Below, one piece after another: positions 61,177 through 64,000 of a stretch of DNA of 64,000 nt. Origin of the DNA: Arthrobacter sp. zg-Y919 (GTDB lineage Bacteria; Actinomycetota; Actinomycetes; Actinomycetales; Micrococcaceae); NCBI RefSeq assembly GCF_030142045.1, contig NZ_CP126242.1, positions 2,418,001-2,482,000 of the forward strand, in the 5' to 3' direction. Positions within the stretch are counted from its first letter, which is position 1. Each line of letters starts with the position of its first letter. The notes beneath the pieces were generated by a model, which was given only the letters and a program-made list of their open reading frames with translations, had not been told where the DNA came from and did not search any database. A program made the translations under genes and the position numbers.

Positions 61177-62157
61177 ATGTCCTTCACTGCCGCTGTTCCA
61201 ACGCTGCAGCAGACTCCCTCGGGTCCGGTGCGTTATTGGGATTCGCCCGCTCCGTACTGCCTGCAGACGTCCCTGCGGATCCTGGTCCGGGGTAAGCAGG
61301 ATCCCACCATCCGGTTGGGTCCCGGGGTGGCCTGGCTGGCCTTCCTCACCCCGGAGGGCCCCGCCACCCTGAACCTGCGCGAGGAACGCGTGCCCGCACC
61401 CGGGGCACGGGTCCGGGCCCAGGCCTGGGGGCCGGGCGCGGAGTGTGCGTTGGCGTCAGTGCCTGCCCTGCTCGGCGAAGGGGATGACTGGTCCGGTTTC
61501 GACGACGACGCCTTCCTCGCCACGCTGCCCCGGATGGTTACCGAAACCCGGCGCCGGAACCTCTCCCTGCGCCTGCCCAGTACGGGCCGGATCATGGACA
61601 CCCTGATCCCCGTGGTGCTGGAGCAGAAGGTGACCGTATTGGAGGCCTATTACGCCTGGCGCTACCTGGTGACCCGGTACGGGATCGATGCTCCGGGTCC
61701 GGCCCCCGCAGGGATGAAGGCCTCCCCCGCACCGGAAACCTGGCAGCGGATCCCCAGCTGGGACTGGCACCAGGCACGGGTGGACTTCTCCCGCTCCAGC
61801 ACCATCCTGCGGGCCTGCTCGCAGGCGTCTTCGCTCCAGCGGCTCGCCGACGCTCCCCTGGGGAAGGACCTGACCGCCAAGCTGTGTTCAGTTCCCGGGA
61901 TCGGCGTCTGGAGCGCAGCGGAAATCACCCAGCGGACGCACGGCGCCCCGGATTCCGTGTCCGTGGGCGATTTCCATCTGGCCGCCTATGTGGGCGCCGC
62001 GCTCACGGGCCGGCGCACCGACGACGCCGGCATGCTGAAGCTTCTGGAGCCCTGGCGGGGCCACCGTCAGCGGGTCGTGCGGATGATCATGCTCAGCGGC
62101 TACCGCAAACCCACCTTCGGACCCAAGCTCGCCCCGATGGACCACCGCCGGCGCTGA
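61177..62157 (+). CDS. AlkA-like DNA-3-methyladenine glycosylase
   Basis: This 326-residue helix-hairpin-helix glycosylase-like protein has the HhH segment KLCSVPGIGVWSAAEITQRTHG near residues 232-253 and, after it, the catalytic Asp in SVGDFHLAAYVG. The N-terminal half is only loosely AlkA-like. Such enzymes remove alkylated bases to start base-excision repair. It is divergent from cbs (125-base gap with two short hairpins) and converges on the Amt gene, 22 bases away. Confidence 0.83.
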   Translation: MSFTAAVPTLQQTPSGPVRYWDSPAPYCLQTSLRILVRGKQDPTIRLGPGVAWLAFLTPEGPATLNLREERVPAPGARVRAQAWGPGAECALASVPALLGEGDDWSGFDDDAFLATLPRMVTETRRRNLSLRLPSTGRIMDTLIPVVLEQKVTVLEAYYAWRYLVTRYGIDAPGPAPAGMKASPAPETWQRIPSWDWHQARVDFSRSSTILRACSQASSLQRLADAPLGKDLTAKLCSVPGIGVWSAAEITQRTHGAPDSVSVGDFHLAAYVGAALTGRRTDDAGMLKLLEPWRGHRQRVVRMIMLSGYRKPTFGPKLAPMDHRRR

Positions 62158-62179: not shown

Positions 62180-63772
62180 TCAATGCGGCAGGATCGCAAG
62201 CCGGTAGATCGATTCCGGCTCCGCGCCGAAGCGCTTGAGGACCGCCACCACTGCTTCCTCATGCTCTTCGTCGACCGCGGCCTGCACCCGCAGCCGGTCA
62301 TGGAAATCGATCCGCCTCTCTTGGCTGCGGAAAGCCTCGGTCCGGATTTTGCCGGTGTAGACAGCGGCATCGGACAGCTCCAGGGAACGGGCACCCGCCA
62401 TCAGTAAGGCATCCCGGAGTCCATCGACCCGTTCGCTAGAGACCACGGCGCTGACGAGGTGGCTGGGGGCGGAGCGCCTCGGGTCGGCGGTGATGCTGCC
62501 GTTCACTGCTCCCCTGCCTGCTGCAGTGGGCCGGGCCGTGACGCCGCTGAGCGAGTAGCCCGAAGAGTCCTGCTGGACGCGGTCCAGGTCCTCCTGTTCC
62601 GGCCCGGGCTCACGCAGTCCGATGGTGCGGGAAATAAGCGAGGCAATAATCCAGCTCAGCACAAAGGAGAAGAGCACTACGCTGACGACTGCGACCGTCT
62701 GGTGCCACAGCAGGAGACCTCCTCCGCCGGAGAAAACGCCGTCATCGCTGACCGGGTTCACTGCACTGTCGGCGAAAAAGCCCAGCAGCAGGGTACCCAG
62801 CACGCCGCCGACAAAATGGACGGCAATCACGTCCAGGGCGTCGTCGTAATGCAGGATCCGCTTGAGCCGGACGGCCAGGGCGCACAGGCATCCGGCAATC
62901 AGTCCGATCAACAGGGCCGAGCCGGTTCCGACAAAACCGGCACAGGGGGTAATGGTGGCCAGACCGGCGACTGCGCCGGAGACGGCACCCACCAAGGTGG
63001 AGTGCCCGCTGCCAACCCGTTCCACGAGCAGCCAGGTAAGCATGGCGGCTGCCCCGGCCGCGTGGGTGTTGATCAGAGCCTGCGCTGCAATGTCGTTGGC
63101 TTCCAGTCCGTCCCCGGCGTTGAATCCGAACCAGCCGAACCAGAGGATGCCTGCACCCACCAGCATCAGGGGGAGGTTGTTCGGCGAGGTCCGCAGGTTC
63201 GGCCAGCCGCGCCGCCTGCCAACCACCAGGAGCACTGCGGCGGCGGCGGCACCGGCGGAAGTATGCACCACCATGCCTCCGGCCCAGTCCTGGGCCCCGA
63301 GCTGGAACAGCCATCCCTGGGGATGCCAGAGCCAGCGGGCAATCTGCGGGTACACCAGGACCGAGAACGCAGCGAGGAAAACCACCCAGCCGGCAAACCG
63401 GAGCCTGCCTGCGGTGGCCCCGGTAAGCAGGGCTGGAGTGATTACCGCGAACATCATCTGGTAGGCCACAAAAGCGAGCGCGGGTATGGTGACGCCTGCC
63501 GCGACGGTGTGGAACTGCGGGGTGTCGAGATCCAGGAGCGCCACGGCATCAAACTCGCCGAGCACGGAGTTGCCCTTATTGCTGAAGGCCAGGGTGTATC
63601 CGACCAGGATCCAGGTCAGGGAAATGACACCCAGCGGAATGATGTTCTGCAGCATCATGGTCAGGACATTGCGGACCGGCACCATCCCGCCGTAGAAGAG
63701 GGCCAGGCCCGGAGTCATGAAGAGCACCAACCCGGCACAGGTCAGCACCCATGCGGTGTCTGCCGCGTTCAT
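62180..63772 (-). CDS. amt: ammonium transporter with C-terminal P-II-like domain
   Basis: This protein of about 530 residues has a complete Amt channel (about residues 1-390) with the signature DWAGGMVVHTSAG, twin His170 and His319 (DVIAVHFVGG), and the FGWFGFNAG segment. Usual Amt length is about 430. Here the last about 93 residues (438-530) read like a GlnB/P-II fold: SAVVSSERVDGLRDALLMAG for the first strand and helix, and a second half RRIDFHDRLRVQAAVDEEHEE. The T-loop tyrosine and the ATP-binding B-loop (GDGKIF type) are missing. I chose ATG 63772; a GTG three codons earlier is open. No glnK follows it. Confidence 0.9.
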   Translation of the reverse strand: MNAADTAWVLTCAGLVLFMTPGLALFYGGMVPVRNVLTMMLQNIIPLGVISLTWILVGYTLAFSNKGNSVLGEFDAVALLDLDTPQFHTVAAGVTIPALAFVAYQMMFAVITPALLTGATAGRLRFAGWVVFLAAFSVLVYPQIARWLWHPQGWLFQLGAQDWAGGMVVHTSAGAAAAAVLLVVGRRRGWPNLRTSPNNLPLMLVGAGILWFGWFGFNAGDGLEANDIAAQALINTHAAGAAAMLTWLLVERVGSGHSTLVGAVSGAVAGLATITPCAGFVGTGSALLIGLIAGCLCALAVRLKRILHYDDALDVIAVHFVGGVLGTLLLGFFADSAVNPVSDDGVFSGGGGLLLWHQTVAVVSVVLFSFVLSWIIASLISRTIGLREPGPEQEDLDRVQQDSSGYSLSGVTARPTAAGRGAVNGSITADPRRSAPSHLVSAVVSSERVDGLRDALLMAGARSLELSDAAVYTGKIRTEAFRSQERRIDFHDRLRVQAAVDEEHEEAVVAVLKRFGAEPESIYRLAILPH

Positions 63773-64000
63773 GCCGGGCACCGCAGGGGCCCGGGCCTAC
63801 TGGTGCTGGGCCTCCCCGTACCGGGCGTACCCGGCCCGGATCTTCCGGTGCTGCTCGTCCCGCTGCTACCGCACATGGAGTCCCGCTTCCAACCCGCTTG
63901 CCGTTCATGGGCGTTCGGACTGCTGGGCCCCGGAACCGGTGCCGGGGGCCCAGGACCAGTCGAGTTTACCGCCAGGCCACGCGGCACCAGAAGGGAACGG
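63773..64000 (-). promoter_or_regulatory. amt upstream region
   Basis: The last 228 bases show no gene I can support. TAAACT (63963-63968 on the minus strand) could be a -10 element, about 190 bases before amt. Between them an 11-bp stem with one bulged G, CTGGGCCCCGG/CCGGGGGCCCAG, spans 63923-63953. I cannot find a convincing GlnR box by eye. Confidence 0.4.

Follow-up and report, generated by a model that had tools for sequence, protein, structure and literature searches.

A 64,000-nucleotide stretch of the Arthrobacter sp. zg-Y919 genome (contig NZ_CP126242.1, positions 2,418,001 to 2,482,000; the window in what follows) carries on its minus strand a gene (62180..63772) that encodes an Amt ammonium channel of 530 amino acids from its ATG, with a P-II-like domain fused to the C-terminus. 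The control of Amt by P-II is a textbook example of a channel that is plugged by a soluble sensor. We propose that this Amt with a P-II fused in cis is a covalently tethered autoinhibitory plug that lacks the usual response to nucleotides and 2-oxoglutarate, a reading that we hold with moderate confidence. What is new is that the fusion drops the sensors of P-II yet keeps the arginine used for plugging, and would thereby separate the two jobs of a P-II protein.

A P-II-like domain fused to an ammonium channel

Residue numbers refer throughout to the 533-amino-acid form that begins at an alternative GTG (position 63781, open reading frame 62180-63781, minus strand). The ATG at 63772 aligns with the Met at which most of the listed homologues begin. 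All parts of the protein are given here by their minus-strand coordinates. The channel core (residues 4-409, 62555..63772) extends to the conserved C-terminal region of Amt (GLREPGPEQEDLDRVQQ..GYSL) and is recognized both by PF00909 (residues 10-409, 1e-100, 337.7 bits against a cut-off of 23.2) and by TIGR00836 (379.9 bits, above a cut-off of 343.3). It is followed by a linker of about 29 residues (410-438, 62468..62554) whose length and sequence vary among homologues, and then by a P-II-like domain of about 95 residues (439-533, 62183..62467) that was delimited by homology searches and predicted structures. The domain runs in the order strand-helix-strand, T-loop, strand-helix-strand, with a shortened B-loop and without the C-terminal part of P-II. 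An earlier reading of this DNA from its letters alone (the sequence-only reading) had described extra C-terminal residues in P-II-like order, and the layout bears this out. Amt and tail share a single open frame without stops, so that the P-II part is not a separate protein.

A single-sequence Pfam match would not by itself prove homology to P-II. The PF00543 search that the sequence-only reading had suggested as a check remained below the cut-off of 25 bits, with scores of 17.3 for the whole protein, 19.3 for its last 116 amino acids and 20.1 for its last 97, and the homology was recovered instead by more sensitive comparisons. The tail sequence alone matches P-II proteins among PDB sequences at 1.4e-5, and a profile built from 17 tails matches P-II structures in the same sequences at 3.5e-13, with 36 of its 37 matches named P-II or GlnK and the remaining one "Signaling protein." Profile-profile comparison of the tails with 21 P-IIs gave 5.5e-16, a tail-only profile search also retrieves free P-IIs, and two relatives (P0039 and P0116) carry PF00543 in their precomputed annotation. 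On these sequence comparisons, the homology of the tail to P-II is firm. A chance resemblance was also considered and is ruled out by the profile searches in both directions.

Structure prediction of the tail alone returned the P-II (ferredoxin-like) fold with a predicted local distance difference test (pLDDT) score of 92.4. The prediction agrees with what had been read from the sequence, and the tail did not turn out to be a known domain of an unrelated kind. The T-loop equivalent (residues 476-491, 62309..62356), which is one residue shorter than in P-II, is placed by the alignments and predicted in the tail-only model to be an extended β-hairpin. Its two strands, numbered 28-48 and 51-67 in the model, are joined by a turn at Arg485-Ser486. 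The ten-residue block at this turn has a mean pLDDT of 84.

The core retains conserved residues of Amt channels: the twin histidines H173 and H322 and D165 of the conduction path are present in 116/116 aligned proteins, and the pore aromatics are intact in the same alignment. Residue 224 is Asp in 115/116 proteins (codon 63110..63112 in the window) and aligns with what we take to be Ser219 of AmtB, presumably part of the external ammonium site. Neither of the genome's other two Amts has an acidic residue at this position, where Ala and Ser are found by eye. Searches of the protein against Pfam and NCBIfam at E values up to 10 found no kinase, cyclase or other enzymatic output domain.

Residues kept and lost in the tail

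The tails of 116 proteins, falling into 48 clusters below 70% identity, were aligned and compared with the 21 P-IIs. Arg485 (codon 62327..62329) is present in 116/116 tails and 48/48 clusters and occupies the only zero-entropy column among the 48 cluster representatives. By profile-profile alignment, and independently by joint MAFFT alignment (48/48 tails, 21/21 P-IIs), this column is that of GlnK Arg47, the residue that plugs the pore. The pore-plugging arginine is kept in every complete tail examined, a point absent from the sequence-only reading. Among the 25 positions that are invariant in the P-IIs, three are kept in at least 95% of tails, namely Leu20 (111/116), Gly24 (115/116) and Arg47 (116/116). 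The models and the P-II alignment place Leu20 and Gly24 in helix 1 and its following turn, so that Arg47 is the sole kept position in a loop that contacts partner proteins. The other 22 positions fall below 95%, of which 17 are wholly or partly replaced and 5 have no equivalent. The T-loop segment has 17-18 residues in 112/116 tails and 18 in 21/21 P-IIs.

The loss of the T-loop tyrosine and of the nucleotide-binding B-loop, claimed earlier from one sequence, extends to the aligned tails. Tyr51 is the site of uridylylation or adenylylation in P-II proteins, in which it is not universal. It is found in 21/21 of the P-IIs compared here and in 0/116 tails, which have mostly Arg (71) or Gln (41) at this position; in the window it is Arg489 (codon 62315..62317). 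Positions 84-87, 101 and 103 of P-II have no equivalent in the tails, and counts at other P-II positions are low, with Gly37 kept in 2 tails, Gln39 in 4, Gly41 in 2, Thr83 in 3, Asp88 in 3, Gly89 in 5 and Lys90 in 0. Lys58 is replaced by Arg in 104/116 tails (Arg496 in the window), and Arg498 corresponds to position 60. Excerpts of PMC8395244 assign the binding of ADP or ATP to GlnK Gln39, Gly87, Asp88, Lys90, Arg101 and Arg103, and a share in 2-oxoglutarate binding to Gln39 and Lys58. The site formed by these first six residues for ATP/ADP and 2-oxoglutarate is not retained in the tails. In five close relatives (P0080, P0084, P0090, P0105 and P0107), the tail is truncated, shifted or missing its T-loop, which could reflect natural losses or assembly errors.

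Distribution, descent and selection

Of 395 family genomes searched, the tail was found in those that belong to the window's genus (29/29) and in no other; the best match among the remaining 366 (1.9e-10) lay over positions typical of free P-II. With the core as query, 116 of the best 120 proteins listed were 505-599 amino acids long and the others 425-466; among the matches listed, named tailed relatives come from Arthrobacter, Cellulomonas, Acidimicrobiales, Micromonospora, Dactylosporangium, Catellatospora and others. When genomes were drawn evenly across the phylum, 1/396 had the tail, namely the window's own; a draw at class level contained 1/197, and another family 0/22. The tail therefore looks conserved where present and patchy across the phylum. 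That a frameshift merely fused amt with a neighboring, separate glnK is rejected on the strength of the open frame, which is kept in 29/29 genomes of the genus, and by homologues of similar length in several families. As candidates for other P-II fusions in the phylum, six places with P-II in a long frame were selected, and these were rejected, the Amt and P-II matches lying in different frames in 6/6.

The tails of the 48 representatives form one clade against the 21 P-IIs with a support of 1.0. Distances between tails correlate with those between cores (r of 0.83, reached by 0/999 permutations). Together, these results are consistent with one old fusion whose parts were inherited together. 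Mean tail distances are 2.75 times those of the core. Over 11 pairs, the ratio of nonsynonymous to synonymous substitution rates (dN/dS) was 0.09-0.14 in the core and 0.15-0.25 in the tail. The linker, for which 10 of the 11 pairs gave a value, ranged over 0.21-0.85. The tail values indicate purifying selection, and hence that the tail is maintained as protein.

A proposed tethered plug and its alternatives

We suggest that the P-II part shed its sensors (Tyr51, the B-loop, Gln39, Lys90 and the C-loop Arg101 and Arg103) and kept its effector, the T-loop hairpin with an arginine at its tip. Amt and P-II are both trimers, so three tethered domains could sit under three pores without recruitment. 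The T-loops would reach into the vestibules on the cytoplasmic side, with the arginine blocking the pore exit in the way that GlnK Arg47 does in AmtB. Excerpts of PMC10433425 give the GlnK:AmtB complex as 3:3, a match of trimers that makes the geometry of a tethered plug plausible, and describe the T-loop in the GlnK-AmtB complex as two antiparallel strands that fit the vestibule. Arg47 blocks ammonia conduction in this complex, according to the portion of PMC4274968 consulted. A plug of this kind would be deaf to ATP, 2-oxoglutarate and GlnD, and the tethered domain should keep free GlnK off the tailed channel. We infer the plugging function from sequence, and the invariance of the arginine strengthens it.

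Several points weigh against such a plug. A permanently closed channel would be useless, yet no release mechanism was found in this analysis. GlnK that carries Arg47Ala retains its binding to AmtB both in vitro and in vivo, as reported in part of PMC4274968, so that the arginine would matter for blockade and not for binding. Arg47 is invariant in the 21 free P-IIs too, and its retention alone therefore does not name the channel as the partner. Apart from Arg485, the T-loop shows no unusual constraint (dN/dS of 0.07-0.65), and in Micromonospora-type tails a Pro precedes the arginine, so that the tip of the hairpin may differ there. In the model of the full-length protein, the T-loop has low confidence and the core is so poor (mean pLDDT of 55.7) that the model is silent on docking.

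If the tail is indeed a plug, its release would probably come about when the channel's own C-terminal region changes conformation, or else through another ligand. We speculate that the protein is a ball-and-chain channel in which a former nitrogen-sensing P-II, stripped of all its known inputs, serves as a built-in gate. The C-terminal region, moved by the occupancy or flux of ammonium, would work this gate, and uptake would be self-limited without GlnD, ATP or 2-oxoglutarate; we offer this more specific version tentatively. We rank a channel-driven change as the most likely, then a ligand held by the conserved Arg496 and Arg498, and below these a structural relic or a role as receptor.

The ligand-driven version would make the tail a sensor in its own right. 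Its cleft would have lost ATP binding, and the basic Arg496 (equivalent to Lys58) and Arg498 (position 60) would bind another anion, whose binding would move the T-loop, making the plug regulated and not constitutive. This seems unlikely given that nothing in the tails corresponds to either C-loop arginine or to B-loop positions 84-87, that Lys90 is gone from every tail and Gln39 from nearly all, and that no conserved pocket was identified beyond the two arginines.

We consider it less probable still that the tail is a structural leftover that stabilizes the trimer or the C-terminal region and leaves the pore unblocked. The lost nucleotide and modification sites, the tail distances relative to those of the core and a T-loop that is largely unconstrained except at Arg485 would all fit such a relic. 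Against it, the sole zero-entropy column lies in a loop without evident role in the fold, and the tail is held under purifying selection and kept throughout the genus. Finally, the protein could be an ammonium receptor, like Ks-Amt5 with its kinase and Sd-Amt1, with sensing done by the Amt core and a signal passed by the P-II-like domain to some partner. The two other Amts in the genome, the Asp in place of Ser219 at the outer ammonium site and the receptor function of another Amt fusion (described in part of PMC5764959) speak for it. We regard this as improbable because the twin histidines, Asp165 and the aromatic residues of the pore are intact and the tail lacks an enzymatic output domain.

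Comparison with known systems

The tethered plug that we favor resembles the GlnK-AmtB complex (PDB 2nuu/2ns1) in having the same two folds, probably the same contact through a T-loop with the equivalent of Arg47, and the C-terminal region of Amt. It differs in that the P-II here is covalently attached, lacks Tyr51 and the canonical nucleotide/2-oxoglutarate site, and has no gene of its own. Ks-Amt5 likewise joins an Amt module to a C-terminal regulatory part (PMC5764959, in excerpt), but carries a histidine kinase and signals outward, whereas the tail described here descends from the channel's own inhibitor. Sd-Amt1 is, to judge from PDB titles, also an Amt receptor of this build. In its logic, the fusion comes closest to LacS, in which a soluble transporter regulator (EIIA-Glc-like) became a fused domain with altered control, as summarized in part of PMC10710835. 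Transporter and regulator are unrelated to those of the tailed Amt, and LacS retains a phosphorylatable control site, whereas the tailed Amt has lost the known control sites. Excerpts of the same paper describe SbtB, a trimeric PII-family protein that inhibits the trimeric bicarbonate transporter SbtA, but SbtB is separate and controlled by AMP.

No description of an Amt with a P-II tail was found in the open-access literature, in the portions available; an earlier remark may exist, PMC5764959 citing a 2009 review for other Amt combinations. In the available part of PMC3831643, AmtB of Haloferax mediterranei is reported to exceed Escherichia coli AmtB by about 90 residues at its cytosolic C-terminus. 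Next to fusion with a kinase, the tailed Amts would be a second way in which regulation of Amt has evolved, and they offer a natural system for asking what plugging alone does. The tail would also predict which actinobacterial Amts escape control by GlnK.

Genomic context

The genome consists of one contig of 3.08 Mb. The usual amt-glnK pair had been said to be missing beside this gene, and no glnK was found beside the tailed amt in 11 loci searched with the genome's own GlnK over about 2.7 kb upstream and 4 kb downstream (best match, 15 residues at an E value of 0.97). The earlier proposal of an Amt with a tethered P-II-like domain and lost nucleotide-site residues is thus confirmed in its homology, predicted fold, residue losses and isolation from glnK. 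A scan of the whole genome with PF00543 recovered, besides the tail, one free P-II far outside the window. It belongs to a separate amt-glnK pair (C1:1165833-1167451), and this GlnK keeps Tyr51. By eye, the gene after the pair looks like ffh, with no glnD between. The third Amt in the genome has 460 amino acids and no tail.

The earlier suggestion to look for glnK and glnD elsewhere in the genome thus led to a glnK. No GlnD was recognized in the genome by TIGR01693 (30.7 bits against a cut-off of 519.4), although among 14 control genomes the cut-off was reached in 3 for PF08335 and in 2 for TIGR01693, so that a divergent GlnD is still possible and its absence not proven. Matches of the GlnD_UR_UTase domain (PF08335) pass its cut-off in a single frame of 1025 residues, which holds two copies of it as GlnE does and whose product looks like GlnE; the other matches are subthreshold. 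In actinomycetes, amt, a P-II gene and glnD are described in one operon in part of PMC11001197.

The tailed gene is followed within 22 bases by a convergent gene, as noted earlier, which occupies 61177-62157 on the plus strand and encodes 326 amino acids. Its product has no match in Pfam at 0.001 or in NCBIfam at 1e-20 and, by eye only, resembles an AlkA-type DNA glycosylase. Upstream of amt and on the same strand lies a gene for a glutathione-independent formaldehyde dehydrogenase (C1:2482099-2483376, L047:5100-6377, minus strand; TIGR02819, 738 bits). Two Cellulomonas loci yielded no relative of this enzyme in the stretches examined. Relatives of it stand in front of amt in 9/9 other Arthrobacter loci, and a link to the breakdown of methylated amines is possible.
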